Origin: a virus
Direction: 5' to 3' (one strand)
DNA length: 64,000 bases
IMG/VR virus record: IMGVR_UViG_3300027771_000011
Span: 1-64,000 of that record
In this document: piece by piece, positions 9,699-51,568 of the stretch
Layout: the number at the start of each line of letters is the position of its first letter
Numbering within the stretch: position 1 is the first letter of the stretch
Notes under the pieces: model-generated
The model's input: the letters and a program-made list of their open reading frames with translations, nothing else
What the model was told of the DNA's origin: nothing
Database searches by the model: none
Program-made: the position numbers and the translations under genes

Positions 9699-9724
9699 AC
9701 TTAAAACCTTATTTGGAGTTAGCA

Positions 9725-10114
9725 ATGTCTAAGTTTTCTGATTATCTTGAGCAGCATATTCTCAATGCCACCTTAAAGGGTGGTGACTTTCCCGATATTT
9801 CTCAGGCCTATTTAGCTGTATTCATCGGTGATCCTACTGACGCGGCTTCTGGTGGCGCTGAAGGTGCATGGACTAACTATGCCCGTCAAGCAATGTCGTT
9901 TGGCACTATTTCTGGTGGAGCCGTTAACAGCTCAACCCAGATTCAGTTTCCTGCATTGGTAGGGTCTAACGTTACCATTAGTCACATCGGCATTTTCGAT
10001 GCGGCATCCAGTGGCAACATGCTTTATCACACCAATTTGGCAACGTCCAAGACACTAACCGCTGACGATGTACTGTCGTTTGCTGTCAGTGGTGTTACGG
10101 TGACACTAGACTAA
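9725..10114 (+). CDS. Virion structural protein, tail/baseplate type
   Basis: The 129-residue protein begins MSKFSDYLEQHILNAT and continues with a beta-rich body containing AYLAVFIGDP and ISHIGIFDAASSG, a pattern I associate with small tail or baseplate-hub proteins of marine podoviruses. The start is ATG 9725 behind GGAG at 9715-9718; an upstream in-frame TTG at 9713 is not needed. The next gene starts directly after its stop. It probably links the tail tube to the fibre proteins that follow. The exact role is not known. Confidence 0.6.
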   Translation: MSKFSDYLEQHILNATLKGGDFPDISQAYLAVFIGDPTDAASGGAEGAWTNYARQAMSFGTISGGAVNSSTQIQFPALVGSNVTISHIGIFDAASSGNMLYHTNLATSKTLTADDVLSFAVSGVTVTLD

Positions 10115-13100
10115 ATGAACTTTTCCGCACTCAATACACACGCGATTGGTGTTATCTCTGCTTCGGCAGAGGTGACAACAGTTGAGGGTGCGGCATCATT
10201 AAGTGCAGGGGCATCTGCTTCTGCTCAAGCAACTTTACACTCTCATGCTACCGCTGCTGTAATCAACTCAGTCGCATTAACAACAACGCAATCTGTTGTT
10301 CGTTTTGCCATGGCTACTGCCACACTAGGTTGTAACGCAGCTGCAAACGTAGAAGGGTATAGAGTTAAGTTTAGTAACGCTGAAATAGTTTGTGCAGCAA
10401 GCAGTGATGCTAATGCTGTGGTTCACAGGCAAGCAGTCGTGTACGTTACGGCTCAAGCAACGAATGTTGCTGTAGGATCGAGGGTGGCCTACGCGTCTGC
10501 TTCATTACAAGCAGAGTGTAACCTAACCGCTAACTCAGGTAAGGTCACTTTCTCCTCTGGAACATTGGTTGCTAATGCAGCTATGTCCTCTAGTGCAAAT
10601 GTTCATCGAGGCGTGCAGGCATCTATCAATGCGACTGCCGATTCTTCCTCATCTACCTTTATAGTCACTCCAGCAACAGCCAGTGTTATCAGCTCTTGCT
10701 CAGTTCTATCAGAAAGCTCAGCGCAAGCCTCAGCCCAATGTTCTGTAGCGGCACAAGCTAATCTAAGTTCATCTGCACACTGTATTCTTCAATCAAGTGC
10801 TGGTGTATCCGCATCAAGTGAAGTCGATTCATCAACTTATGTCGTATGGGATGCCTATGGTGTCTTTATTGGCTCAAGCTTAGCGATCTCAGTCGGTGAA
10901 AAGAAAGCGGTGGCACAGACCACTTTGGTTGCAAGCGCTGCATTAACTGCCGTTGCAACTTCAGGAGCGTTCTCTTATGCCACTGTTACTGCTCAATCTA
11001 ACATCATCGCAACCTCTAGTATTATTCATGGCTTAAATGCTAGCGTTACTGCAAGTAGCTCACTATCTAGATCTGACACCCAAACTTTTGTGGTTACTGC
11101 TTCTGGCGGTAACTATGTCATTGCTAGCCAATCTAATAGACCATTAGATTTCAAAGTCGGATCTACATATACATTCGACTTATCAAGCTCTAGCAATGGT
11201 TCTCATCCTTTACGGTTCAGCACCACTAACAATGGCACACATGGTGGTGGCAGCGAGTACACTACTGGCGTAACCATTACTGGTAATCAAGGTCAGGCTG
11301 GCTCTTCGATTTCCATTGTTGTCACTGAAGACACCCCATCTACTCTTTATTATTATTGTGCTTACCATTCCGGTATGGGTGGCACTGTATCTGTTTCAAG
11401 TGCTGACGATGTTTCAGCCAGTATAAATTCTTTTGCAAGCGCAGCCCTTAATGGCTCCGCCTTAATTACTGCATCATCAAATTCTGTTATTGAAGCCTCA
11501 GTTACGATTGCTTCTGTATCAGAGTTAACGGCTGCTGCTCATGCAGTTGTAGATGCTGGTGCAGCATTTGATTCAACGAGCAATGTAACTGCTGAAGCCA
11601 TAGCGATTTCTGGTGCTCAAGCAAGTGTTTCTGGCTCTAGCTCACTATCAAGTGTTAGCTATAATGTATCCTCGGCTAGTGCAACCTTTATTGGCTCCAG
11701 TATTGCCATCTCAGTTGGCCATAAGAAGTCAGTCGCTCATACAACCATCAATGCTAACGCAGCCGTTTCTAGCGCGGCTAACTCTGAGGTTTACAACGCA
11801 GCTTCAGTAGCAGCGTCAGCTGTTGTGAGTTCGATTGCAGTTAACTATTCATCTGCTCAAGCCAGTTGTGTCGCTCAGAGTTCTGTTTCAAGTTCAGCAT
11901 TTAATACTGCTAATCCAAATGCAGCTATTATCGCTCATGCAAATACATCGGCTACGACTGCTACTATACATTTTGCAACAGCTAATGTTGATGGCTCTTG
12001 CGTCATTGCTACTGCGCCATATCGTGTTATTGATGTATCCGCAGCGTTGTCTGCTTTTGCTGTTTCCATATCAGTTGGTAATAAGATTTCAGTTGGAAAT
12101 GCTCAGTTTATAGGCACTGCCAACCTAACAGCTGTAGCACAGGCTAGTAGTAATGGTCAGGCAACAGTTACTTGTAGCGCCTCGGTTTCAAGTTCGGCAA
12201 TCGCAGCGAGAATTATTCAAGCTGAAGCCTATGTGCTGGATAGTTTTGAGGTAACCCCCGCCTACACGATACCTGAATACGATACTTACACCTATACAAC
12301 AGCTACGTCAGTTTATGGGTATTACTCTCCTGTACCTTCGTTTCAATCTCGAACTAATCCGGGCGGAGTTACATACTATTATTCTGGTAGTTATTACTTT
12401 TATCATGGTATGTACCCTGCTGGGTCAGATTACACATGGACTTTTACCCCTCAGAATCAAAACTCTTCTCCACCTACAGAGTCTTCAACTTGGGGAAGCT
12501 TTGGGCCTGCTCCAGCTGCAAATACATCAGGCCGTTATAAAGGCGCTGTGATTGGAAGTATTAACCATCAAGACTCTGTGTATATTCCCGGTCTGAACCA
12601 AGTAACTGTAACTCACTACGCTACTCGTTACCAAATACTAGAAGACACTGTTACTACACACACGACCACTCATCCTGCTGTTTACGTTGAAGCAGTATCT
12701 GTACCAACAGGTTACACACCTAATGCTCAGGTTGTGGTTTCAGATGTAAGTGTCCTTAGTGGTAGCTTTGCATACTCAACAGCATCAGCTGAGGTTACTG
12801 CAACAGGTACTCGAGTTTGTATAGGCATAGCAGACGTAACCAGTGCAGCATCAGCTACGTCAACAGCGTTCACAGTAAGGTACATTGACGCATCAGCAAC
12901 AGTTAATGCTACGGCAGACTTATCGTTAAGTGTCACTGTTGACATATTAGGGTCAGCCCAAGTATTGGCAGATGCTGAAGCAACAGCTGAAAGCTTCAAC
13001 ACTTTACTTGCTACTGGATCGTTCAGTGGATCTAGTCTGGCGATTTCTGTAGGTAATAAGAAAGCTGTAGGCCAGACTGATATTGTGGCTACTGCTTCAG

Positions 13101-14242
13101 TCTCTGTCGCTTCATCAACCTATGTGATATTTGACGCTTCAGCAGCAATCAATCCATCTGTAACCATAAGTGCTGTTGGAGACCTTACAATTATTACTGC
13201 GGGGCTATCAACAGCTACCGCAACAGCCAGCATTGTTGCCTCTGGCTACCTATCAGAATCAGTTGCCAGTGCTTCAGTCAATGCCTCAGCCTCAGCCACA
13301 GCTGATGGCGACAACTTAATCGGTGCCGTAGCAAATGTTATTACCACACAGTTCTATACAGAATCTGTATTCCATCCTGCCGTAATAACTGCGGGGTATT
13401 GGGTTCCTGCTGTGTGGGAATGGGCAGTCGTAGGATCCACAGTATATGTGAATGGGTCTTATAGTTATGGCCCTGTCGGATCAGGATATAGATTCGTATA
13501 TCCCGGTACAACTTCTTATCAAGGAAGTGACACATACCTAACTTATGCTACGGAACAGTATACACAGACAGCAGCAACTTACTATGTAAACCCTGTAACC
13601 GTTAGCGAAGCCTATACCACTCCAGCGTTCTGGACAAATACAGGATATACCCCTTCTGCAAATGTTGCAGCTGAAGCCACCGTACTATTTAGCTTCAGCC
13701 TCACTGCGTCATCTGAACTGTCTGCCACAGCTGGAGCAATACAAACTGCTTCTGCTCAGATCTCAGCGTCAGCAGATACCACAGCCGCTTCTTACATTGA
13801 GAGTTCTGCAACCTGTACGTTAAATGGTACAGGTTCCATATCTCCAGTTAACACAAACTTCCTTAAATTCACCAGTGCTGCACTATCAGCTTCGTCTGAT
13901 GTTGTGTCATTAGCTGATAAGGAAATTTATGCCAAGGCGGATGTAGTTGGAACGGCTGACATAACTGTTTCAGGAACAGGAATAAACGCTGCGTTTGGTT
14001 ATTCAAATGCCGCAGCTTCAGTAGAAGCAACAGCCTTCCGAATGAGGGTTCCTTCTCCGATAAACGCCATAGCAACAGCTGAAGTAGTAAGCAGCTTTAC
14101 TTATGTTTCACAGACGGGTGAACGCAGTAACGGCATTCTCATATTGGTTGAGGCAGAAGTCCGATCTATAACGGTTGAAGCGATTGACCGAGTAATCATT
14201 GTAGATGCAGAAGATAGAACCATCTTTGCCGAAGCAGCTTAA
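10115..14242 (+). CDS. Giant Ser/Ala-rich repeat fibre protein with a cupredoxin-like domain
   Basis: A 1375-residue virion protein built mainly of Ala, Ser, Val and Thr, like an extended beta-solenoid or fibre shaft. Four copies of a module with the core GSSLAISVG(x)KKAV start near residues 250, 525, 645 and 970. A cupredoxin-like domain lies at about 325-430, with candidate copper ligands His364, Cys415, His418 and Met421 (motif CAYHSGMGG), the C-x2-H-x2-M spacing of amicyanin. Two Tyr-rich islands (about 712-868 and 1077-1182) interrupt the shaft. It has no signal peptide. It starts on the base after the previous stop. A tail fibre or tail-spike role is inferred from position; copper binding is a prediction. 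Confidence 0.75.
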   Translation: MNFSALNTHAIGVISASAEVTTVEGAASLSAGASASAQATLHSHATAAVINSVALTTTQSVVRFAMATATLGCNAAANVEGYRVKFSNAEIVCAASSDANAVVHRQAVVYVTAQATNVAVGSRVAYASASLQAECNLTANSGKVTFSSGTLVANAAMSSSANVHRGVQASINATADSSSSTFIVTPATASVISSCSVLSESSAQASAQCSVAAQANLSSSAHCILQSSAGVSASSEVDSSTYVVWDAYGVFIGSSLAISVGEKKAVAQTTLVASAALTAVATSGAFSYATVTAQSNIIATSSIIHGLNASVTASSSLSRSDTQTFVVTASGGNYVIASQSNRPLDFKVGSTYTFDLSSSSNGSHPLRFSTTNNGTHGGGSEYTTGVTITGNQGQAGSSISIVVTEDTPSTLYYYCAYHSGMGGTVSVSSADDVSASINSFASAALNGSALITASSNSVIEASVTIASVSELTAAAHAVVDAGAAFDSTSNVTAEAIAISGAQASVSGSSSLSSVSYNVSSASATFIGSSIAISVGHKKSVAHTTINANAAVSSAANSEVYNAASVAASAVVSSIAVNYSSAQASCVAQSSVSSSAFNTANPNAAIIAHANTSATTATIHFATANVDGSCVIATAPYRVIDVSAALSAFAVSISVGNKISVGNAQFIGTANLTAVAQASSNGQATVTCSASVSSSAIAARIIQAEAYVLDSFEVTPAYTIPEYDTYTYTTATSVYGYYSPVPSFQSRTNPGGVTYYYSGSYYFYHGMYPAGSDYTWTFTPQNQNSSPPTESSTWGSFGPAPAANTSGRYKGAVIGSINHQDSVYIPGLNQVTVTHYATRYQILEDTVTTHTTTHPAVYVEAVSVPTGYTPNAQVVVSDVSVLSGSFAYSTASAEVTATGTRVCIGIADVTSAASATSTAFTVRYIDASATVNATADLSLSVTVDILGSAQVLADAEATAESFNTLLATGSFSGSSLAISVGNKKAVGQTDIVATASVSVASSTYVIFDASAAINPSVTISAVGDLTIITAGLSTATATASIVASGYLSESVASASVNASASATADGDNLIGAVANVITTQFYTESVFHPAVITAGYWVPAVWEWAVVGSTVYVNGSYSYGPVGSGYRFVYPGTTSYQGSDTYLTYATEQYTQTAATYYVNPVTVSEAYTTPAFWTNTGYTPSANVAAEATVLFSFSLTASSELSATAGAIQTASAQISASADTTAASYIESSATCTLNGTGSISPVNTNFLKFTSAALSASSDVVSLADKEIYAKADVVGTADITVSGTGINAAFGYSNAAASVEATAFRMRVPSPINAIATAEVVSSFTYVSQTGERSNGILILVEAEVRSITVEAIDRVIIVDAEDRTIFAEAA

Positions 14243-14254
14243 AGAGAGATATTT

Positions 14255-14527
14255 ATGGAATCGTATACCAAACAGCCCACTGAAAGATTGGACTATGACA
14301 TTGATTTTACTGCATGGCTTCCAAGTGGGGACGCGATAATTTCCACTGTGACTGCTTCAGCTCCAGCGGGCTTAACGATTTATGTGACTGATGCAACGAC
14401 CATCATACCTAAAGTCTGGGTAGCTGCGGGTGTGGATAAAAAGAGCTACATCGTTTCTGTCACAGTTGAGACCAACCAAGGCCGAACTAAAGAAGTCAAC
14501 TTTAAAGTTAAAGTAAAGGATACATAA
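14255..14527 (+). CDS. Small Ig-like tail/fibre adaptor protein
   Basis: A 90-residue all-beta protein (LDYDIDFTAWLPSGDAI, then SYIVSVTVETNQGRTKEVNF) resembling the short immunoglobulin-like phage proteins described as fibre-tail adaptors. The pattern 'velocity of a linear polymer' of alternating hydrophobics ends with KVKVKDT. It lies between two fibre genes with one-base and twelve-base gaps. It may be an attachment module for the following fibres. Assigned by size, fold pattern and context; no ligand site is visible. Confidence 0.55.
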   Translation: MESYTKQPTERLDYDIDFTAWLPSGDAIISTVTASAPAGLTIYVTDATTIIPKVWVAAGVDKKSYIVSVTVETNQGRTKEVNFKVKVKDT

Positions 14528-14528
14528 A

Positions 14529-15794
14529 ATGGCTTTCGAGAATAACGTACAAGGTACGCTACAGGCAAACTTAGCTATCGGTGCAACTACTGTTGATGTG
14601 GTTAAAGCTGTTGCCCCAAATAAAGATGTTCCTACAAGTGGCCGTTTAACTCTATCTGCCACAGACAAGACTGAGATCATTACTTATACAGCGCGTACTA
14701 ATCCTACTAATAGCCAAACTTTTGCAGTTACTTCAGTTAGTACGGAGTCAGGTAATAAGTATTACATCAATGGTGTACGACAACAAACGCTAACTTTAAA
14801 AGTTGGATCTACTTATATATTCACTTATCCATCAGGCCATCCGTTTCGATTTTCTACTACTGCTGATGGTACACATGGAGGTGGGTCAGAATACACCACA
14901 GGTGTAACCCACAATAGCGCAACACAAACTACGGTTGTCGTATCTGATAGCACTCCAGCAGCTTTGTATTATTATTGTTCTTATCACGCAGGCATGGGTG
15001 GGAGTGCATCAGTTGTTAGTTATTGGACACTGACTGGAGTTGCTAAGAATGCTGAGTCTTCTTTTGGAGATCAAGCATGGTCAGCAGGTGATTCATTTTT
15101 CCAAGCACTAACTGCAGCTGATGTAGTTAATTTTACAACAATACAATCAGCTACAGCGCCTACTAATCCTTCTATTGGTACTAAATGGTTTAATACTACT
15201 ACAGGCGTTCTTCAAGAATATTTAAGTGACGGCACTGATTCAGCTTGGTTAGACATATCAGCAGGTGCTGTCTTGATGGCAGCATCAACTTCTGCAACAG
15301 TAATTGCCCCAATAGCACAAGGCCGTATTAGCACAGAAGCGTCAGGCACAGCAGCAGGCTGTAGTTATAGTGCCTACTCTAGTGGTAATACAACTGTAAC
15401 TTTTAACACAGCTATGGCAGATACTAATTACTCTGTCATTACAGATAAAGAAAATTTTGATGCACATCAAGTAATAGTAAGTAGTAAAACAACTACTTCT
15501 TTTGTCCTGCAATCAAAAGACACCGCAGGCACTGGAAATATGTCACCTTCTAGCTGGCCTTACGCATTTGTTGTCTATGCAAGTGACCCAGTACAAAATG
15601 TAATAGCAAATAAAGGCGACACAGGCGACACAGGGGGAACAGGCCCAGCTGGAGCAGCAGGCCCAGCAAGTCTTTCCTTTGGTGAATTCAGCATAGAACC
15701 AGTTACAGGAATGTTATCAGTAAACTACTACGGTGCAGCATACGAGGAAGATTTTTCAATAAACTCAAACGGTGAACTAGAGGTAACAACCTAA
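14529..15794 (+). CDS. Fibre protein with a second cupredoxin-like domain and collagen-like tail
   Basis: The 421-residue protein starts with a beta-rich anchor. At about 65-165 is a cupredoxin-like domain closely similar to that in the preceding giant gene: His104 in GHPFRFS, then Cys150, His153 and Met156 in YYYCSYHAGMGG. A phage-tail module (WFNTTTGVLQEYLSDGTD, about 218-238) follows, which recurs in the fibre gene at 17444. Near the C-terminus is a short collagen-like GDTGDTGGTGPAG run. It overlaps the next gene by one base. It is probably a fibre subunit; the copper site is predicted from ligand spacing only. Confidence 0.72.
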   Translation: MAFENNVQGTLQANLAIGATTVDVVKAVAPNKDVPTSGRLTLSATDKTEIITYTARTNPTNSQTFAVTSVSTESGNKYYINGVRQQTLTLKVGSTYIFTYPSGHPFRFSTTADGTHGGGSEYTTGVTHNSATQTTVVVSDSTPAALYYYCSYHAGMGGSASVVSYWTLTGVAKNAESSFGDQAWSAGDSFFQALTAADVVNFTTIQSATAPTNPSIGTKWFNTTTGVLQEYLSDGTDSAWLDISAGAVLMAASTSATVIAPIAQGRISTEASGTAAGCSYSAYSSGNTTVTFNTAMADTNYSVITDKENFDAHQVIVSSKTTTSFVLQSKDTAGTGNMSPSSWPYAFVVYASDPVQNVIANKGDTGDTGGTGPAGAAGPASLSFGEFSIEPVTGMLSVNYYGAAYEEDFSINSNGELEVTT

Positions 15795-16444
15795 TGCCAA
15801 CTTTAAATTTAGGCAAAGTACGCTTTGCTTTACAAGGCACATGGGATTCAGCAACTGCCTATGCAATTTTAGATGCTGTTCTTTACAACGGCAGTACATA
15901 TACTGCTATTGCAGCTTCTGCTGCAGGTACAGTTCCATCTAGCAATGCAGCTATCTGGCAGTTACTTGCTGAAAAAGGTACTAATGGCAATGATGGTACT
16001 GATGGCAATGATGGTACTAATGGCACTACTTTTACAGCAGGTACAGGGTTAACTCTTTCTGGTACAACACTTATTTGTGACATCAATACTCCGTCTGAAG
16101 TAGGTCTTAGCAACTTATCAAACAATGGTAATAACTTGTCAGGTAGTTTCACAGCTTCAGGCAACATTACAGCTTACTCAGATGAACGCCTTAAAAGCAA
16201 TGTAGAAAAAATTCCTAACGCACTAGATAAAGTTCTTAATGTTCGTGGTGTTACTTTTGATATGAATAGTGAGAGAGCAACTGGTGTTATCGCACAAGAG
16301 TTAGAAAAAGTGTTACCAGAAGCTGTGTTTGATAATAAAGATGGCATGAAATCTGTAGCTTACGGAAACATTGTAGGACTTCTTATTGAAGCAATTAAAG
16401 AACAGCAAGTTCAAATTAATAAGCTAATTGAGGAAAGTAAGTAA
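15794..16444 (+). CDS. Tail fibre with self-cleaving S74 intramolecular chaperone
   Basis: A 216-residue fibre. The N-terminus has strands and a Trp-rich attachment motif, then short collagen-like GTDGNDGTNG repeats (about 62-78). The C-terminal 90 residues are a Peptidase_S74 chaperone: YSDERLKSNVEKI, followed by FDMNSERATGVIAQELEKVLPEAV. In this family the domain trimerises the fibre and then cuts itself off using a Ser-Lys dyad; Ser129 and Lys134 in SDERLK fit. The mature fibre would be only about 128 residues long, a very short S74 substrate. It overlaps both neighbours by one base. Confidence 0.85.
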   Translation: MPTLNLGKVRFALQGTWDSATAYAILDAVLYNGSTYTAIAASAAGTVPSSNAAIWQLLAEKGTNGNDGTDGNDGTNGTTFTAGTGLTLSGTTLICDINTPSEVGLSNLSNNGNNLSGSFTASGNITAYSDERLKSNVEKIPNALDKVLNVRGVTFDMNSERATGVIAQELEKVLPEAVFDNKDGMKSVAYGNIVGLLIEAIKEQQVQINKLIEESK

Positions 16445-34229: not shown

Positions 34230-37200
34230 ATGTCTTCATTATACTTATCCCAGATGCGCCAGAATCCACAGTATCAGAATATTCCTGTTGACCAGTTAGC
34301 CCGTATGGTTTACGACCAAGATGCAGAGCTTCAGGACATATCGTTTGAACAATTCATGCCTATATTTAATGACACAGGTGAAGTGGCTCAGGCCGCACCA
34401 GCTGCACAGCAGATGAACCCAGCTCCTGCTGAAGAGATGGGATATGGCCAGATTGGTTTAGATAGCATTGACGCTGCACAAAGTGGATTCCTTAACGCTT
34501 CTGCTGGTTTAGCTGAAGGTGTGGGTGGTATTTACAAGTGGGCTACTGGCGAAGAGTCAGAGACGGCAGGTGATATTGCGGGGTACTTGAGAGACGCAGG
34601 TGAAGATCAGATACAACAGATGTCTGAGTCAGGTCGAAACCAGATGCAGAACTTTGGTGTTGAATACAGTAGTGAAGACGGCCCTAGTATGAGAGAGGGT
34701 TCCACACTTGTTGGCGGATTGTTGAATATCGCTAGTGGTGTTGGCTCATCTATACCTTACTTAGTTCCGGGTGGATTAGGGGCCAAGGTTCTAAGCCAGA
34801 GTGGTCGAGCGGTAGGTGGAACAATCATTCCAAGTTTAGCTAGAAAGCAAGCAATGAACCTTCCAGCTGGCAGGATTCCTCAATCTCTGTCTATGGCTGC
34901 TGTTGGCGGTACTGGTCTAGGTGGTGAGACAAAGAATCAAGCGTATCAAAAAGCATACAACTCTCCCGCTGAAGAGTTAAATAAAACACCAGCTTATCAA
35001 GCAGCTTACTGGGAAATTGCAGATACCTACAAAGCGCAAGGTACTAAGGTATCTCATGCTCAGATAGAAGAGATGGCTCGTACTGCTGTGGCTGAGGCGG
35101 CTGGTGATGACGCATTCAAAGATGGCTTCCAGCTCGGTGCAGTGAGCATGGGTGCGCTTGGCCCCATGTTCTTGAACAATGTCTTAGGACGCGTTAAAGG
35201 CGGCTTCATAAAGAGAGCTGCCTCTGGTGCTTCTATTGAGGGTACTCAAGAGTTAGTAGAGTCTGGTGGTCAGGCTTATCTTTCTAACTTAGCAGTGAAT
35301 GAGAATGCAAACAGTTCGATACAGCCAATGGATAACGTGGTCAGTGAAGGTCTTACTGGCGCTTTGATCGGTGCAGGAACTGGTGGCTCAATGTCCCTAG
35401 CTGGTGGTTTTGGATCTAAGGCGGTTGGCATCACTAAAGAAAAAGACATGCCCGGATATTTTAGGGAGCAAGAGAGGCTTCGTAAAGAGGGAATCGTTGC
35501 AGAGAAAGAACAAGCTGCCATGGATGCAGAGTCAGTTGAACCTGCAGTAGAGGAAGGTGTTGAGCTTGTTGAAGATACAGAGACTCCTACTGGTGCAGCA
35601 GAGACTCCTACTGAAACTCTGGGTGAAGCACTAGCCGATGCTGAAGAGCAGGCAGCTTTACCTGCAGAAGAGTCAGCTGATTCTCCAGATAGGCCAGAGT
35701 CTTCTGAAGTCGATCCTGTTGAGGAGACCACTGTTGAAGAATCTCCTGAAAAGGCTAACTACAGAGCTGATTTGCAGATAGCTTTAGACATAGCATTAGC
35801 TCAGTCAAAGAATCGCAAGCTTACTCCTGAAGCGCGTCAGGCTGCTTCTGATCGTATTGCTGGTATTCAAGATGAGATAAATAAATTAGATGAGACGCTA
35901 GCATCAACAGAACTTGATCTTGAAATAGAGACTCCTACGCCAGTAACTCCTGCATCAAACCCAGCTTTAACAAAGCGGATACTTGAGTGGTCTAAAGTCC
36001 AGCCAGATAAAGCCAGTGACAGATATGATGAGCAGCGTGTGTACAAAGACGCAATCATTCGTGAGCTAAAGTCTTTAATGAAAATGGAAGTAGGTTCTGA
36101 TCAAGCTTTCCGTAAAGAAGAAAGCATTAGGATGATGGAAGAGAAGTTCGATGCTCTAGCACCAACCCCATTGAATGAAGTACCTCGTTGGCAGCAAGCG
36201 TTAGAAGAAGAGGACGCTGTGACTGAAGCTCAGTTGCAAGAGTATGGACAGATGGAAGCTGGGACTGTTGATTCATCGACTGAGGTTCAAGATGACGTCA
36301 CTGGTGACAACCTATACGGTGTGTTTGCTAATCAAGAGACTAACCCTTTTGCATCTATAGATTTGTTCGGCAGATTGCAGCCTATAAAAGAGGATGGCAT
36401 TGCTATTGATCTTAAGGGTGTTGTGCGCGACAACATGAATAGTCTGCGTGCCAATGGTACTCCTGATAATAAGAATCTAGATCGTAAAACTGTCAACAAC
36501 ATTTTGACTAAAGACGCTGAGCGCATTGAGGCTTTGACTAAAACCTCTGCCATTAATATGGTAGTCAGAAGCCAATACAAAAAGATAAATAAGGAACTAG
36601 GTAAGGCTTCAGCTGACTATTACATTGAATCGTTAGGCCGAGGCATGGGTTTGTTTTCAAATCCAACGCCTACTAAGTTAGCGATGTACGATGAGTACGT
36701 TGAAGGACTTAACGATAACGTAGTGCCTTTGACCTACGAGGTATGGGAGTCAACGATACTTCAAAAGGGAAAGGCTCCGAGCTTAACGGCAAAAAAGCCT
36801 AGTCCTCAACCGGTTGAAGAGCCAGTTGAGGCATCCGAATCGGTATCTGCTGAAGTAGCGCCAATACAGAAAACAGCAGATGACTTTCAGGATGATGGAA
36901 CCTATTACAGAGTTGTTGTTGGAGACACATCTTTCCAAGACATAGTTGATAGTGGAGAAGTTAGGACTAATGCGTCTTCAAAGAAGCCAAGAAAGGCAGA
37001 TGGAAAAATTGACCTCTCATCTCGTCCAACGAAATGGCCTTCGTTCAGCAAAGATTCTGCGTCAATGGATTACGCTGGTAAGAATGAAGACCATTACATT
37101 GTGGTTACAAACGACCCATCTATACAGCCATCTAAGCAGGGTAGGCATGGCAAGGGAACCACACAGTTCCCTACTGATGCCAATGGCAATCCAATGGAAT

Positions 37201-40200
37201 CTCTTTCTGGTGATGCTATCTCTGTATACAAGCACACGGGTAATGGTAATTACGAGTTGGTGTATAACCGTGGTCAGGTTGTGTCTAAGCCAGACAGCGA
37301 TCCTACTCCTACTAAGAAAGCCATCCCTGCGTCACAGGTAAAAACTGAGGCTAAAGGAACCACTGTTGCTGATAAAAAATCCAGTGGGAATCAAGCTGTA
37401 CTAGAAGAGAATGAAGAATCGGTCATTGATGAACTACCCGTAGATGTTCCTGTGTTAGGTAAGCAGGTAGTTGAAGTGCTAATATCTGACCTTACTCTCA
37501 GTGAAGATGTGCCTCAATTTAAAGATGGGGCAGACAGCGAAGGAGTTGTTGACCCTCTTGGTGGCACGTTTGATCGGACAGGTGTTGCACCTATTCAGAT
37601 CTGGTTGCGTGAAGATGGCCGCAAGGAAGTTATCAGTGGAAGGCATCGTCTTGACCTAGCCAAACGCAGCGGCGAGACAACCATACCTGCACAGTATCAC
37701 CTAGAGTCAGAAGGGTTTGGTGCAGCCGAAGCCAGTATACTAGATGCTTTATTAAACATACGCGAAGGACAGGGGAAGGTAAAAGATTATGTCGGATTCA
37801 TCCAAGCAAGAAACCTCACCGAAGAAGAAGCTGACGCAGAAGGAATTCTGGCAAGACCAACGGGAAAAAGGGCATACACGATTGCAAGTCAAGGAAGTCC
37901 TGCGCTTGTTGCCGCCCATCGTGCCGACCAAATAGGAGACAACGCTGCATCCCTGATTTCCCAAGCCGCACCTAATAACGAACCACTTCAAGCTGTTGGA
38001 CTCAAAGCCTTACAAGAAGGCAAGTCTATTACTGTGTCTGTCAATATTGTAAAAGCAGTCAACAGTATGACCAGAGATACTGCTCAAGAGAGTGGGGATC
38101 TGTTTGGGTTTGATGACTCAGCTATGAAAGAGGCTGAGAATCTAGCGCGTAAAGCTGGACAGAAGCAAGCTGAAATACAACGCACGTTGACAGCAGTTAC
38201 AGGTGCAGCAAAGAATCCAGAGTTAGCTGCGGCTGAAGGGGTTGACGTACAAGATCCTGAAGCTGTTCAAGCTAGGGTTGCCGAACTAAAAGACCAGAAG
38301 CGTGAATGGCAAAACTGGCACACCAACCCTGCACTCGTTGCAGAACTCACAGGTAATGAGGTAGCTGCGCCAGTAGTAGAAGTTACAGCTGATGAAGTAT
38401 CTGCGCCCGCAGTAGAAGCTACAGACAGTGAAGTAACTGAACCAATAGTAGCAGAAGCTACAGATGATGAAGTAGCTGCGCCAGCCCTTGAACTATCTAA
38501 TCAAACCGAAGAAGAACTTGCTACCAAAGCAGGGCGAGACCTTGATGCGGGTGAAACTAAAGAACAGGTTGACCGAGAGGTTGACGGTTTCAGTCTTGAT
38601 GGTGGCGTAAGTTTAACCACTCAGGCAGACCCAGCACAGAACCCACAATCTAATGATTTATTTGAAGGTAATCCAGATGTTAACGAAGTTGAAGTTGAAG
38701 TTGAAAGTACTCCTAGTACAGATGAAGTTGTCAATCCAAGTGTGGCTGATCCGGTTGCAGATACAACTGAAGTTGTTGCTGAAGAAAATACGGACGTAGA
38801 AAATGATGTACTGAATGATGTTGTACCAGCAGATAGAGGTGCAGTACCAGAAGGTGAACAGGAGTCGATTACTCTCTACGGATTAGAGGCGGATGGATCA
38901 ACTTCAAATAATGATCCAACAGATCTTATCAATGACGTCAGAGTTCTACAGTTTGTAACAAGAGACGATGGTTTAAAGCTTGCCCTCTATGTGGGTGATA
39001 AAGACACAAGTGATACTGACGCTGTTGTTTATAAGTCAATGGATAAAGCAGAGGCTGCATCTAAAGATTTAGAGAGTAAAGGGTTAGGACTATACCGTCC
39101 GACTATGTATAAGAAACGCTTTGCCCTCAACGCATTGATTGTGGCTAAGAATCAGTCAACCGATGTGCCCATGGTTTACAGCAACAAAGATTCATCTGAT
39201 CAAGCAAAGAATCGCATGAAGTCTAAAGAAGCTTATGACATTCAAGAGTCAGGAGCAGGTAAGTTCTACATTGTTACAACCCGAGACTCTATGGATAAGG
39301 AGGGTAAGAAGGATAATGAAGCCTCTAATTATGATTCAATAACCGAAGTTAGAAATAACCTTCAAGAAGACATCGAAGAGAATGTCCCGTCATATGTCCT
39401 ATCTCAAACGACTAATGAAAAATTCCCTAACCAGCCTCAGCTATTCATGCTCGAAGGTAAAACTGACAACTTATTAAAGTATGTCCAAGGCAATCAGATT
39501 GATGACTTGAGTAATGTTGCAGAAGAATTGCTGGATGTTAAGTCTAAAGAAAAATCAAAGACATTAATTGCTGCTGTTGAATTTGCAACTGGCCGTATTG
39601 ATACTATCAATGCTTCACTTAAAAAGAAGGAGCAGCAGAACAAGATAGTTCTTGAAGACGGTAAGAGCGAACTAAAAGCTGTGTCTATTATGTTTAGGTC
39701 AGTGAATAAGTTTGAATCTAAAGTTAATGAGGATGGATCTTTAACCTTGTTTGGAAACAATAAGGACTTAGAGCGGTTCTTGTCAAAAAATAAACTTACT
39801 GAAGGTCAGCAACCTGTGTATGGCACCCTTAATGAGGGAGAATTTTCTGTAAGCGAAGAGCAATCAGGGACAGTCATTGGCATTAAAGTTCCCAAGACAA
39901 CTGCAACAAAGTTAAAAGGCAAGCTGGAAAACAAAGCGCTTTATTTTGTTGATGGTGAAGTGGAAGGTGCAGCCTACGTTGTCAATCCAAGTAAACCTCT
40001 GCTTCAGAAAAAAGATCTTACTGTTAATTTAGAGGAAGGCCGAGTAGTTATTCCTGAAAAGGAGGGAAGGAGTGAGGACGAAATTCAAGAGGACATTGAG
40101 ATTGGAAGAGCTAATGCAATGGAGAGCAAGGCTAGTGACCCAGTAGTTGATCGTCAATCTTATGAATCTGTGAGGGATGAATTAGCAGGGATGCGAGATG

Positions 40201-43200
40201 CCGAAACTCAAGAGATTTCAAATTTCTTAGATGGAACTGCGACTTCAGACGTTGGAGGTGCAAGCACTAAAAACGCCACAGAATTCTTCGATAGCATTGG
40301 TGATGGAGACTATGGTTTTGTCTCTCAAGATGAAGTCACTAACTCAGCTGAAAAGTCTGCACAAAAAGACAGTGATGAGAAAGTAGAAGCAGATCCTGCT
40401 GATGCTGATCTGATAGAAGAATTACTAGGAGACTTAAGAGAGGCTACGGGAATTATTGACGACCCTAAAACAACTGCGGCTGACCGAAAGACAACTGAAG
40501 GTCTTGCCAGAAAGATTGAAGAAGACTTAGTGGCATTAAACGCTGGCGATCAATTCATTAAAATCTCAGCAAAAGGATCAGTAACCGAGGCGAAGAATCA
40601 ACCGGTAGAAAAGCCAAAGAAGAAAAAGGTAGCCAATCCAAAGAAGAAAACAACTGAGGACAATAGTGAATCTCCTTTTGATATGTTTAATACCCTTCTC
40701 AATGACTACCCCCCACTCTATGTATCTAGGCGTCAGCTAAAAGGCATGACGGGTATGTCCGTTGAGGATGTCCAAGCAGTCATTGATAAGTTTGAAGCTA
40801 AGTACAACGGTATACCTGACATTAAGTATATGGTCGCTGATATTCCTCTTGATGGAGGACAGGCTTCTTTAAGTGGTATGGCTGGTGGTGTTCCTACAGG
40901 AAGCTTTGATGCCAAGAATAAGCTAGTCACTCTTAATTCTGCTGGTCTTAATAACGTTGCTGAGGTTGAGTCTGTTCTTCGTCATGAGATTCTTGCTCAC
41001 TATGGATTATCTGTGTTCCCTACTCTTGAAGAGAGGATGGACATCTTAACTAAGGTCTCTAAAGCTGAAGGACAGAATGAAGAGCTAACTAAAATATTCA
41101 AAGAGGTTCGCAAAAGCTACAGCGCCAGAACAGATGCTTGGAAGGAGCGAGGGGCAACTGACGAAAGCATTGAGGCTATGGTGGCAGAAGAAGTCTTTGC
41201 TCGAGTCGCTGAAGAAAGAGACCAGTCTGTTTTCGGAGAGGCTTGGGATGCGATTGTTTCATACGTTATGAAAGCACTGCGCAAGGTAGGCTTCTATGAT
41301 CACTACACTAAGTCAGATGTTCGTAGGACGTTGCAGAGTTTTGGTAAACAGTTTACTCAGGCTGATGTAGAGACTTCGCTTCAAGTAAATGCGCAAGTTC
41401 AAGAGGTTAAGTTCAGCATTCCACCTGAAGACGGTGTGGCTGGAGTAAATAGTTCTTTAGACAAGCTGTTGGCTAAGGTTAATGCCCGAAAAGAGAAAGA
41501 CGATAAAGCTAAAGAAGCGAAGTCAGCCAAGATTGGTGCTCAACAAATATTTGATCAAAGAGCGAGTCTTGAAACTGAGGCTAAACCATCAGCAAGGCCC
41601 ACTGAAAGATTGGAAAAGGATCTTAATCTTGCTGAAGGTAGGGCACCAGCAGTAGAAGTTATGCCTGATCTTATCCCAGATCGGGCGAAGGTCAGTGATC
41701 ATTCATCAGTTTATTCTGACTCATTGGATGCAGGTCAGAGGATGGGTGTTGATCTTGCGATGACGACCATGATGGAGAAAGGATCTCGTGGGTTCTTGTT
41801 GGCAGATGGTACTGGCTTTGGTAAGACTCGACAGATCTTAGCTATGGCTGATCAGTTTAAAAAGGCTACTGGACAGAAGGTTCTGATACTTACAGAGAAT
41901 GAGCCGACCCTCAAGAAGAACTTTGCTGATGATGCTGCATCGATGGGCATAGATATGAAGCAGTTCAAGACTGGAACATACAATAGCTTTAAGGATGGTG
42001 GTCAACGTAACGGAATAAAGCCTGAGTTTGATCAGGAGTGGGGCATGGTTATATTTGATGAGGCTCATAACCTAAAGAACTACAACACGCTTCAAGCTAA
42101 AGCAGCTCGTAGGCTGTCAAAATCCAAGGTAGTTTACGCTACAGCTACGCCGATGGATCGCCCGTCAGCTGGTGCTTACATGTGGGCTGATGTCATGGGT
42201 CAGAGTTATAAAGAAGCTCTTGATAACCTAGGAATGAAGCTAGTCAATGGCCCAAAAGTAAAGGTCGATGGTAAGTATGTAGAGGGCAATAAGGTTGTAG
42301 AACTTAAGAAGGGCATCTCTCCGAAGATGGCTATTGAGAGAGTAGCTATAATGAGAAACTCAGCCATCAAGTCAGGTCGAATGATCAAGCGTTACTACCC
42401 ATTCTTTGGCACGACCAGTGAAATAAAAGTTGAGATGGAACAGCAATCACGGCTCGATCAAGATGACATAGATAACTACTGGCAGGGAGAAATTAATAGT
42501 GGGTCAGGTAGCCCTAAAAACTTAAGAGGTCAGCGCATACTTGAGCTGGTCAAGTGGGAAGAACATCTTAAGATTGATGCGGTAATGGACAAGTTAAAAG
42601 AGGATTTGTCTAAAGGCATGCAAGTGGTTGTTGCAGCTGAGACAGTCTCTGAAGATCTAATAGTTAAAGGTCTTGAAGGCGGCAGAGTGTCAGGATTTAT
42701 TAGCTTAATTGAAGGTCGATTGGATGCAGAGAATATTGATTACGTTTCAATTAAAGGTAAGACCACCCCTGCTCAGAGAGCAAAGTCTGTAGAAGAATTC
42801 CAAAGCGGTAATATTCCTTTGATGGTTATGACTACTCAAGCTGGAGGCACAGGAATTAACCTAGATGATACTGTCGGTGATAAGCCTCGTTCATTAATCA
42901 TGGTGACTAAGAACTGGTCTGGTTCAAAAGTGATGCAGTTGATTGGCCGAGTATCTAGAAAAACCACACAGTCTCCGTCAGTAGTGAATGTGGTTTCATT
43001 GGAGGGTGGTTTAGCTGATGCACACAAGTCAGCTGTAGTTTCCCGTAAGCTAAAAACATTACTCAGCTCTAGTGGTGAGCCATCTATACTGGAAGATCTA
43101 GACGCCACTGAGTGGAATGATGTCCGTGATTCAAATAAGAACTACGTTGGATCTAAAGATGGAAGTCTGATTGATGACGTTGATTCATCAGAGTCTGAAG

Positions 43201-46200
43201 CAACATCTTCCATTCCCCCTGCTGATGCTCAGCCAGAAGTGGATTCATCTATGGGTGATAACTTCATGGCAGTGCTAAGAAAGCATGGCACTAGACCTAC
43301 TCCAGACGAGACGGCAAGTGGTAAGAAGTTTATAAACCTCAAGAGTAGTGTGGCCAATAAGGAAACGATCCAAGCTACGCTGGCAAGAATTCTTCCTAAG
43401 CAAAAAAATGGTGATGATAGTAAATTCTCTAAGCCAATGAAGGTTAAGGGTACGAAGAATGAGTGGTTCTTCTATGTATGGAATACAGATCAAGCTAAAC
43501 AGATAGCTGCTGACTTAGAGAAACGAGGAGTGAACTACTCTCGACAGTCAGTAAATGAAGTGGCTCGTGGCTTATCAGGAAAAAGTGTTAAGGACATTGA
43601 AGGTTGGGTAGGTAAGTCGATCTTGGATAAGATGAATAGTCTTGGTCATAAGGTTGAAGTCGTTCAGTCAGTCGCTGACATTCCACCCATGCCATTAGCC
43701 TATGATCCAATGGTTAAGATGACGGTTATAGATCAAGTTAATGCTGTGTTTGATGAGGTGCGTGAGGTTAAAGATCTAGTATCTGGTAAGGATGCCGTGG
43801 AGGTTGCTGAAGCTGTTGCAGCATCCGCTCCTAACGCCTTACATAGGGACATTGCTGCAAAGGTAGCTGTTCAGCTTAGACAGTTAAGGGACTTAGGTTC
43901 AGACGTTGGGTTCCAAGTCCTTCAAGTAGGGGACTCAGCCCCATCTAATGTTAAGTCTACGATCCAAAGTGGTGCTAAAGGATTAACTGTGTCTGCTGAC
44001 CCTCGGCTAGTGGCTGCGGGTAATCTATCTGGAAAGGTTTACATTGTAGGGGACACTGTCAGTAGCAGTAAAAATGGATTGGATTTTGAAACGATCACTC
44101 ACGAGTTGGTTCATCTTTCCACAGCGGCTTCGCATGTGGCTGGCCGAGTTCCGGCAAATAAAGACACTCCTTATGCCAAGTTATTTGATGATATGGAAAG
44201 CCTAATGAAGGTGGTTAGTGCTCATGGTAAGCGTCAGAAAAATAACATAGAGAACCTACCCAAGTTCCAGCAGGATTTACTGAATGGATATAATAATTCT
44301 GCTGAAAGTGGCAGGGAGATCATGGCGTGGGGTCTAACTAATGGGGACTTCCAGACGTATCTAGAATCTATTCCTCTTAATGATAACAAGACAGCGTGGG
44401 ATTCTTTTGTTCAGAGTGTTCGTGAGTTCTTAGGGATTAATCCTAATGATGGCACAGCACTTTCAGAAATGCTAAGGATCTCTAATGAAACATTGTCATT
44501 AGATCTCAATCAGGTATCTGAACTTCTTAACAGTAACATCTCCCCTGATGACGTTTCGGTTAATAAGCCAATGGCTATTGATCCTAATGCGAAAGGAATG
44601 TTCATACCTTCTAGAGGCATATCATATCTTGTTGCTGACAACCTACACTCCAAAGCGGAGACCCGCAGTACATTCAGTCATGAAGTTGTAGGCCACTACG
44701 GTATGCAGCAGATGATGGGTAATGAGTTTGGTTCATTACTTGATACAGTTCAGGACATGAAGGCTAAGGGTGACCCAGAAGTTGTGGCTGCTGCTAAAGT
44801 AGTTGAGACAAGAAGCGGTAACCTAGGGCGTGAGGAAGAAGCTGAAGAAATAATTGCGGTACTGGCTGAAGACTTAGCCTCTAGATCTTTCATGACTAAA
44901 GTGTATGACGCAATTCGTATGTGGATCAAGCGTACATTCTCCAGCAACTATGTAGTGTCCAACAGTAATCTTAGAGACCTGTTGCTTGATGCGCAACGTC
45001 ATGTGTCTAAAGATGTTAGTAATGAATCTGTAGCACCTCAGACTGCGAGTGAGATCCTTTACTCGAAGGTATCCAAGATGGATTTGCCTAAGCAGTTAGA
45101 GGTATACACTGACGCTCTAGAGAATGTTCACGAATCTCTGGGTGGACTAGCTAAGCAGGACTTTATTAACTCAACAAAGGACGGAGCTAGTGCAATACTT
45201 AATCAGAACAAGACTCGTAATTTCCTACAGTACTGGTTAACAAATACTCAGATACACCGCACTTATAAGTCAGCGTTTGATTGGAAAGGTGGTAACCCAC
45301 TTAAACGAATCAATGATTTACTCGGTGAGTTCCGAGTTGATAAGGAGAGGGCGCTTCATGGTTTCGAGAAAGAAGAAAAGATTTGGGACAAGCTCAGTGC
45401 CAAAGAATCTAACTCACTAGCCAGCTTAATGAGGGACTCTACTATTGCTGGCATTCATCCTAATGTTAGTGTTGAAAACAAAGTACATGACTACGTCCGA
45501 GAAGATAAGAAGAAACTTGACAGAAAGAAGCTAAAGGATAAGCCAACAACAACTGACTTGGATGATATTGTTCGTCTGGAAGAGAGCATTAAGTTCATGA
45601 AGGAGGAGCACGCTCGTCTGTCTCGAGAGTGGAATAAGCTTTCGGTTAACGCAAAGACGGTGTACGAAGACACTCGTATCATGTTGAAGAGTCAGTTTGA
45701 GCAAGAGCGAGAAGAGTTACTTAATCGTATAGATAGACAGATTGAAAGTCCTGTTCATCGTGAGTCAGCCAAGAAAGCATTGGAAACCCGAATGGGTGAT
45801 TTGATTACTCGCGGCCCATACTTTCCTTTATCCAGATTTGGAGATCATGTTGTGATTGCTTTTGCTGACATCAATGGTAAGCGAGAGTTTGTTCGAGAGC
45901 AGTTCGAGAGTCGGAGTGAAGCTGAGCGTGCGCTTAAATGGCACAAGAGCAAGTGGGGTGAGAATAATGCTCGTATGACTTATATGGCTGATATGTCTAA
46001 GACCTCTAAGTCTGACGACTTGTTTGCATTCAGAGACAACCTTTTCACTGCACTCGATGACAACCGTGATGAAACTTTAAGTGATGATCGTATGGATGAT
46101 GATGCCAAGGCAGCTATACGAAAATCAACAGAGCTGCTGAAGAATGAGATCAATGATCTTATGCTCAACACGTTACCGTCTAGTTCAATCATGCAGAGGA

Positions 46201-50374: not shown

Positions 50375-51568
50375 TCAGGCAGACTTCTTGCTAGGGTTAA
50401 GCGCTTCGATTGATGCACGATTTAATACGTCTAGTGTGGGCGTTGCCTCCTGCCAAACAATATCTTCGTGACCTCTTCCGTAGTTCTCCGTCATCTCTAG
50501 ATTAGCATGACCAGCCAACTGCTGAGGGTACTCTTTAGTTTGCTTCTGAATAAGATATATCCCTAGCGCTCTACCTTGGTGAAATGCTGGCTGTTCATTC
50601 ATTGATAGATCAGGATAAGGGTTAGCTAAGTCTCGTATCCGCTTGAACTCGTCAGACAAATACTTCGGGTACACCTTTGTGTAGTGAACATCATCTTCTC
50701 GTCCTGCGTTGCGGAGCCTCGGCTTCCGGTGAATTAGAAATGGGCTTGCTATGTTATCTCTGCACTGGTTTACAATAGCTCGAAGCTCTGGCGTTATCTC
50801 AATCTTGAGATAGCCCATGTCAGAATATTTCTCGGTCTTCTGCTGAATCACTTCAATAGAAGTGTCAGTCGATTTAGGCATCCGTATATTTAATATGTCA
50901 GCTCTTCGCTGAAGTGTCGTCAGTGCCAAGTTCATCGCACATCGCAACCATAGAGGGCATTCAGGATGGTCATAGATGGCCATCCAACCCTCGAAAGTAT
51001 GACGCTTCATGACACGTTTAGTTTTAACTGGCTTGGTCATATCAACAGGATTAGAATTACCGGTGATGTAACCTTTGGTGAGAGCGTACTGCATCATCAT
51101 CTTTAGGTTTTTACGCGTTGCGTTTCTTGCGTGAGGTGTACCAGAATCCTCATCATCTTCTTCGGGGTCATAGACTAAATCAAACAGCTCGTTTATCTTC
51201 AGGAGTGTAAACTGTTCCAAGGGAAGGTCAGGCATGTATTTAATTACCTTGTTCATCATCGTCTTCCGTTCAGCGATCAACGAGTCAGAGAAGTTGTCTA
51301 TATTTTTCTCGACAACATTAAGATACTTGGCGCACAGATCTCTCAGCTTCATACGAGTGCCGATGATCGACTCTGTTAAGTCAGTGCGTACAATGAGGAT
51401 AGAATTTGCTTGGTTAGCTGCACGAATTGCTTCGCCTCTGTTGGTGCCGAGTGACACATCTTTGCCAGCTGGTGCGTTGACGTAACGATAATAATCTGTC
51501 CCGTTGGAAGAGTTTATTTTCAGATACATTGGAAGTCCCTTAGTCTTACTTGATTGACGTTTCCTCAT
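50375..51568 (-). CDS. int: Tyrosine-recombinase integrase
   Basis: It catalyses site-specific integration and excision at attP. The 397-residue protein has an N-terminal DNA-binding part (1-70), a core-binding helical domain (about 70-185) and a catalytic domain with Arg221 in LQRRADI, Lys244 in QQKTEKY, the box His330-x2-Arg333 in FHQGRALG, His354 in LAGHAN and nucleophile Tyr363 in ENYGRG. All six catalytic positions are present. It starts at ATG 51568 behind AGGAG and overlaps the excisionase gene by 23 bases. It is the last gene of the long leftward operon, as in lambda. Confidence 0.93.
   Translation of the reverse strand: MRKRQSSKTKGLPMYLKINSSNGTDYYRYVNAPAGKDVSLGTNRGEAIRAANQANSILIVRTDLTESIIGTRMKLRDLCAKYLNVVEKNIDNFSDSLIAERKTMMNKVIKYMPDLPLEQFTLLKINELFDLVYDPEEDDEDSGTPHARNATRKNLKMMMQYALTKGYITGNSNPVDMTKPVKTKRVMKRHTFEGWMAIYDHPECPLWLRCAMNLALTTLQRRADILNIRMPKSTDTSIEVIQQKTEKYSDMGYLKIEITPELRAIVNQCRDNIASPFLIHRKPRLRNAGREDDVHYTKVYPKYLSDEFKRIRDLANPYPDLSMNEQPAFHQGRALGIYLIQKQTKEYPQQLAGHANLEMTENYGRGHEDIVWQEATPTLDVLNRASIEALNPSKKSA

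Follow-up and report, generated by a model that had tools for sequence, protein, structure and literature searches.

A cupredoxin-like module with type-1-like metal ligands in two fibre-type genes of a podophage-like virus

In a 64,000-nucleotide stretch of viral DNA (IMG/VR record IMGVR_UViG_3300027771_000011, positions 1 to 64,000; hereafter the window), two neighbouring fibre-type genes each encode a domain predicted to adopt the cupredoxin fold. Known cupredoxins act as electron carriers or as domains of enzymes. Both domains hold four type-1-like ligands, His364/Cys415/His418/Met421 in the first (domain 1) and His104/Cys150/His153/Met156 in the second (domain 2), as a first-pass annotation of the window had proposed. 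We consider it reasonably likely that the two represent a mobile cupredoxin module with an intact type-1-like ligand set that is displayed on the virion surface and probably binds copper, with adhesion as its likeliest role. Among the matches listed in the open-access literature, judged from titles and abstract openings, none described a phage fibre or baseplate that carries a cupredoxin or a copper site. The interest of the finding lies in a conserved cupredoxin ligand set occurring as a mobile module on tail fibres and baseplate connectors of cultured cyanophages and pelagiphages; virions may carry copper.

The first His and the Cys are separated by 51 residues in domain 1 and by 46 in domain 2, exactly the spacings first reported, and the two domains are 50% identical across 113 columns. 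Within 72 stop-to-stop frames of at least 100 amino acids (22,030 residues in the window), the pattern C-x2-H-x2-M was found exactly twice, and each copy had a His 39-57 residues ahead of it. Chance occurrence was rejected on the basis of shuffling: 20,000 shuffles of the two proteins gave 2 with at least one such match and none with both.

Structure prediction, which the first-pass annotation had named as a check on its proposal, yielded confident AlphaFold2 models of both domains, with a mean predicted local distance difference test score (pLDDT) of 87.4 for domain 2 and 88.7 for domain 1. The models were built on alignments whose sequences had been selected by hand (A1, 46 rows; A4, 49 rows). 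The best-matching solved structures were mostly cupredoxins. For domain 2, Foldseek gave 46 rows at E<=0.001, of which 40 were cupredoxins, copper nitrite reductases or multicopper oxidases; of the remaining six, five were SO1698 'aspartic peptidase' entries and one was from type II secretion. Its best Foldseek match was rusticyanin (E 2.8e-5), and its best VIA match was the cupredoxin domain of the Hyphomicrobium nitrite reductase (2dv6_A; Z 10.2, root-mean-square deviation (rmsd) 2.5, 94 aligned). All ten rows obtained with domain 1 at the same threshold were rusticyanin or nitrite reductase, with amicyanins and pseudoazurins ranking below and protein-arginine deiminase 2 entries appearing from rank 13 onward. 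Altogether the structurally matched cupredoxins include rusticyanin, the nitrite reductase cupredoxin domain, plastocyanin, amicyanin and laccases. In the domain 2 model, DSSP assigned a strand at 97-102 that ends at Cys102 (model numbering) and a next strand starting at 110, which places the second His and the Met in the loop ahead of the last strand; the order of the ligands matches that of known type-1 sites.

No solved phage structure homologous to the domain was seen. Domain 1 aligned to the 'putative tail fiber protein' 9l9p with an E of 0.72 and with the motif region unaligned, and this candidate was rejected. The whole protein that carries domain 2 (421 amino acids) gave a single match to solved structures, an antibody chain (E 0.042). 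When gp9 of cyanophage P-SSM4, which carries a related domain (see below), was compared with solved structures, the match to T4 gp9/gp10 was confined to the N-terminal part (residues 3-64 at most, in T4-type rows). Among BFVD models, domain 1 matched pithovirus proteins annotated 'Beta-sandwich protein' at E ~2e-6.

Conservation of the ligands was assessed across a family of related domains. A hidden Markov model (HMM) started from 54 seed domains was run on 343 fetched loci and on the two window proteins, where it found 374 domains; the scan omitted 9 of 352 loci, namely L081 and L082, which are the window itself, and L163-L167, L170 and L171, which came from the search with the Pfam family Copper-bind and were taken as true cupredoxins. 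One listing of relatives excludes domains with an internal stop, and L061 is missing from that listing. The complete set His-Cys-His-Met was present in 361 of the 374 domains, His-Cys-His-His in 4, and part or all of the set was missing in 9. The change of Met to His (C-x2-H-x2-H) occurs in the viral contigs L041, L056, L059 and L074, which keep the rest of the motif. Exactly one Cys was present in 365 of the 374 domains, which rules out an intradomain disulfide as the reason for the conservation of this residue. Clustering and column ranking used 368 of the 374 rows, and after clustering at 70% identity (82 representatives) the ligands took the first four places in conservation (His 80, Cys 79, His 79, Met 78).

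Because the Cys-His loop was part of the patterns behind three of the recruiting searches, the conservation of the Cys and of the second His is inflated there. Recruitment was also performed without the Cys motif, using the N-terminal half of the domain (residues 38-92 of the modelled stretch) as query; Cys, His and Met were kept in all 80 loci recovered (61 distinct), a set close to the query (65-100% in the matched part). Some contigs were shared by the loop-based and N-half searches, so the 374 rows are not independent, a redundancy that the 70% clustering deals with. Recruitment by tblastn alone, from 20 phage records, gave 38 rows, 29 of them with complete His-Cys-His-Met. The other nine comprise six domains of the protein encoded downstream of gp9 in T4-like cyanophages, one partial match in Syn1 (Y---) and two pieces from ACG-2014j. 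The latter two (L185; frame residues 599-660, H---, and 717-756, -CHM) are apparently one domain split by an insertion.

The six cyanophage domains (L178, L181, L182, L189, L190 and L192) constitute a natural control for the site. They read NATA, QATH, HSDH, QYH-, N--- and NSN- at the ligand positions, so that three or all four ligands are gone from each, and they sit beside a ligand-keeping copy in the same protein next to gp9; the NSN- domain, from S-RIM8, occupies a later position in its protein than the other five do. The ligands have therefore been lost together, as a metal site predicts. Further along the protein of L181 there is also a match to the Pfam family YHYH.

The module proved to be widespread. 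Relatives of domain 2 were detected by tblastn (E 1e-3) in 251 of 50,697 phage records, 246 of which are named Synechococcus, Prochlorococcus, Pelagibacter or Methylophilales phage, or Cyanophage; judging by these names the hosts are mostly marine. The baseplate wedge tail-fibre connector gp9 of T4-like cyanophages has the domain at its C-terminus, with all four ligands present, and the domain of P-SSM4 gp9 was itself matched in 335 of the 50,697 records. Six sampled cyanophages have an extra four-ligand copy in the gene next to gp9, while in the pelagiphages HTVC028P and Baldr the domain lies near the end of a tail fibre. At least 595 relatives were confirmed in IMG/VR, and relatives were encoded in 118 stretches of a one-genome-per-species collection, 80 of which were kept. 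The module also occurs in surface-type proteins of marine bacteria and archaea. When ten carriers from the genome collection were searched against Pfam, one matched a T7-type tail fibre, three matched cadherin or bacterial immunoglobulin (Ig) domains (two over the cut-offs and one just under), one matched collagen repeats, one DUF4214, one gave a weak baseplate-wedge match, one gave only a weak match to the At5g54830-like domain, and two gave nothing; the carriers with a recognisable role are thus virion or surface-type proteins. Weak matches to this plant At5g54830-like domain were seen in 4 of 46 family members (best E 1.2e-4). Tandem copies within one protein were observed in L042, L044, L047, L079 and L145, the last having three. 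In L083, a Pelagibacteraceae contig of the genome collection, the domain is part of a protein with a T7-type tail-fibre N-terminus, and L084, another such contig, has the same domain sequence; both are likely to derive from an integrated or co-sorted pelagiphage.

Contigs related to the window bear on the modularity of the domains. Six IMG/VR contigs have in common the small adaptor gene that lies between the two fibre-type genes. Three of these (L358-L360) encode the 1375-residue fibre with the window's domain 1, and domain 2 is complete in one of them and cut by the contig end in the other two, while L361 has both domains. L362 retains domain 2, and its 817-residue fibre has no domain 1 yet is related to that of the window (73% over residues 1-100, 68% over 101-200 and 58% in the C-terminal part), from which we conclude that domain 1 is a unit that can be gained or lost. 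L363 has neither domain; its neighbouring genes are dissimilar to both fibres, and this contig therefore says little. In the L361 fibre domain 1 is 65% identical to that of the window, against 50% and 42% in its flanks (global alignment), and domain 2 reaches 99% identity where its surroundings have 88-89%.

Several observations weigh against assigning these domains to copper-binding cupredoxins. No metal was seen, as AlphaFold2 supplies none in its models, and the best VIA match of domain 1 reached only Z 8.7 (rmsd 2.7, 96 aligned). The window proteins gave no match to Pfam Copper-bind (PF00127) at E<=1 and did not attain its cut-off of 21.2 bits; weak matches were obtained for 8 of 46 relatives, the best at E 0.016. 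A profile comparison with six marine cupredoxins was likewise weak (probability 10.7%, E 0.0029), although its alignment nonetheless registers the first His, the Cys and the second His. In classic type-1 sites the first His is followed by Asn (or Ser) and the second is preceded by Pro. Here 362 of 374 domains have Pro after the first His, and the most frequent residues ahead of the second are Leu (112), Ser (78), Asn (50), Ile (42) and Tyr (36), with Pro outside the top eight. At coarser clustering the ligands also stand out less: they are conserved in 27, 26, 26 and 26 of 28 representatives at 50% identity, level with a Gly and a Phe, and each in 15 of 16 at 40%, level with a Pro. Domain 1 is not the best-kept part of the L361 fibre, whose first 100 residues are 82% identical as compared with 65% for the domain. 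Finally, domains lacking the site exist, which makes the fold independent of it.

Against these points stand three relatives that exceed the Copper-bind cut-off, from Woeseiaceae (L169, 25.4 bits; its domain is 50% identical to the query), from a Flavobacteriaceae surface-type protein (L168, 24.1 bits) and from the proximal tail fibre of Prochlorococcus phage P-SSM2 (23.6 bits), all of which are among the 374 family members. Together with the fold matches and the ligand conservation, they support the assignment to a cupredoxin-type domain with a C-x2-H-x2-M loop. The narrower label 'amicyanin-type', which the first-pass annotation had chosen, was borne out for the loop spacing only: seven residues, as in CTPHPFM in the title of PDB entry 2vmj, which we take to be the amicyanin loop. 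In phmmer searches with the window domains plastocyanins appeared at E 0.18-0.95 and no amicyanin was listed, amicyanins being found among the domain 1 structure matches, and Pro predominates after the first His.

The same data bear on what the site does. Phages often carry Ig-like sandwich modules, and the domain could be one more of these, a metal-free beta-sandwich for adhesion in which the ligand-like residues are a structural relic; the six sister domains next to gp9, which lack the site but fit the family profile, show the fold at work in its absence and keep structural explanations of this kind alive. We nevertheless judge this explanation, also raised in the first-pass annotation, to be improbable for both window domains on the strength of fold and ligand conservation, because at 70% clustering the ligands rank above the Gly and aromatic core positions, because they are lost in concert, and because Cys, His and Met persist in 80 of 80 loci recruited without the motif. 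A real metal site with a structural or otherwise non-redox role, in which Cu(I), Zn or another soft metal acts as a staple lacking type-1 optical or redox behaviour, is harder to dismiss, even if we think it rather unlikely. Cys-2His-Met, when carried by a cupredoxin fold, is the classic ligand set for type-1 copper, which argues against a staple; the replacement of Met by His in 4 of 374 domains, the absence of Asn after the first His and the fact that no redox partner is known for fibres are in keeping with a staple. Phage tails also offer a precedent for metal staples, in that T4 gp37 holds iron by HxH motifs, as cited in PMC11705849.

Two further readings appear less probable still. A redox module whose copper takes up an electron at the host surface, thereby triggering or gating infection, had been suggested as redox or copper sensing; the intact type-1-like ligand set and the position of the cyanophage domain on gp9, which connects baseplate and fibres, fit this proposal. 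Against it, no redox partner was found among the 13 window proteins scanned with Pfam (part of the window), the same module occurs in proteins with cadherin- or Ig-like matches, and a related fibre does without domain 1, so that we give it little credence. Least probable of all, in our view, is a Trojan-horse mode of attachment, in which a host copper-uptake receptor would recognise copper-loaded fibres, in parallel to the hypothesis advanced for iron on phage tails. This would suit a module found on fibres of phages with different marine hosts, and iron offers a precedent as reported in PMC11705849, but the module is also present in cell-surface-type and baseplate proteins.

Taken together, these results favour a mobile, probably copper-binding module with a likely part in adhesion. 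In the simplest account it has a working metal site, and copper, suggested by the ligand set and the fold, is the most likely metal. Adhesion or recognition is preferred over electron transfer because, of the carriers examined, those whose function can be guessed are mostly fibres, baseplate connectors and multidomain surface-type proteins, and because no partner for electron transfer is known; the carrier proteins make adhesion the likeliest role and a redox role less so. Both domains would then be accessory surface modules of the virion, the first inside a long fibre and the second close to the N-terminus of another fibre-like protein. The cytoplasm keeps copper scarce. As this is where virions are assembled, the metal would probably be bound after release into seawater, where it may lock the Cys-His-Met loop and so stabilise or shape the surface that contacts the host or its matrix. 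It is conceivable, if doubtful, that many common tailed phages of the ocean (T4-like cyanophages, pelagiphages and this podophage-like virus) carry several copper-loaded cupredoxin sites on their fibres and baseplates, with copper aiding attachment or the triggering of infection. If so, phage particles would represent a copper-binding pool and copper would be a variable in marine infection, adding a second metal to the idea of iron on tails and bearing on copper speciation and phage attachment.

Among known systems, the small cupredoxins (plastocyanin, pseudoazurin, amicyanin and rusticyanin; PF00127) are alike in predicted fold and in the ligand order His...Cys-x2-His-x2-Met. They are free electron carriers, whereas here the domain is a module inside fibre- or surface-type proteins, and further differences of the domain described here are a Pro after the first His, a position ahead of the second where Pro is rare or absent, and scores of the window domains below the Pfam cut-off. 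The C-terminal domain of the cyanophage gp9 connector (PHROG 677) belongs to the same family (hhalign probability 99.3%, E 4.6e-20, four ligands; one Flavobacteriaceae domain, L168, was also included in that alignment), but gp9 has a T4_gp9_10_N N-terminus and comes from another phage group, the window phage being podophage-like in its fibre genes. Fibres that hold iron through HxH motifs, a property proposed for Alteromonas phage R22Y in PMC11705849, likewise provide metal ligands within the tail-fibre proteins of marine phages; their site is octahedral and binds iron, whereas the ligands described here are a single Cys, a pair of His and a Met on what is predicted to be a beta-sandwich, and the HxH motif is absent from both window domains. 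Iron bound in this way, together with the Trojan-horse hypothesis in that paper, is the nearest published idea that we have seen. Cyanophage petE, a homologue of the host's photosynthetic electron carrier plastocyanin, is also a phage-encoded cupredoxin, but it is metabolic and, in the passages of PMC2984593 that describe it, is not presented as part of the virion.

The coordinates of the two domains and of the surrounding genes are collected in Table 1.

Table 1. Features of the fibre-type gene region (positions in the window)
Feature	Position	Strand	Evidence
Upstream cluster protein, fibre-like by Pfam	9713..10114	+	PF23140 Gp80 (podophage GP4 fiber I protein) E 1.2e-34
Tail-fibre-like protein, large, 1375 amino acids, Ala/Ser-rich, holds domain 1 (~residues 322-428)	10115..14242	+	Open reading frame; PHROG 30742 tail fiber E 2.5e-13
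Cupredoxin-like domain 1 (predicted)	11081..11401	+	tblastn with domain 2; AlphaFold2 pLDDT 88.7; Foldseek; VIA Z 8.7
His364 codon, first ligand of domain 1	11204..11206	+	
Ligand loop of domain 1, Cys415-x2-His418-x2-Met421 (CAYHSGM)	11357..11377	+	
Fibre-tail adaptor-like open reading frame, 90 amino acids, between both fibre genes	14255..14527	+	Pfam PF23148 Gp77 (podophage GP4 gp77) E 6.1e-20
421-amino-acid protein, domain 2 after ~65 residues, Gly-rich collagen-like stretch near C-terminus	14529..15794	+	PHROG 27200, 677, 30742
Cupredoxin-like domain 2 (predicted)	14706..15023	+	AlphaFold2 pLDDT 87.4; Foldseek rusticyanin E 2.8e-5; VIA 2dv6_A Z 10.2
His104 codon, first ligand of domain 2	14838..14840	+	
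Ligand loop of domain 2, Cys150-x2-His153-x2-Met156 (CSYHAGM)	14976..14996	+	
Downstream fibre protein, endosialidase-type chaperone	15794..16444	+	PF13884 Peptidase_S74 E 1e-16

The limits of domain 1 were taken from the identical protein in L358-L360. From its sequence content this neighbourhood is most likely a fibre cluster, because a gp77-like adaptor lies between the two genes and a gp80-like gene just upstream. The first-pass annotation had called the two genes adjacent, and they are indeed neighbours, but the 90-residue gp77-like frame keeps them from being contiguous. Its description of both products as fibre proteins agrees with PHROG 30742 for the domain 1 protein and with the tail PHROGs 677 (E 4.8e-10) and 30742 (E 2e-08) for the domain 2 protein; the best PHROG of the latter, 27200 (E 2e-10), is of unknown function. 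Since the PHROG matches of this 421-residue protein largely overlap domain 2 itself, its fibre label leans also on the neighbouring genes.

For the upstream cluster protein, PHROG 240 names the family 'head protein', as against the fibre label from Pfam, and the downstream chaperone-type protein has an N-terminal CBM_5_12-like match (PF02839, E 6.8e-5) under the Pfam cut-off. Elsewhere in the window, positions 34230-48155 encode a 4641-residue protein with SNF2/helicase parts and the large-polyvalent-protein domain LPD39. An integrase with a lambda-type arm-binding domain is encoded at 50375-51568, which suggests that the phage may be temperate.

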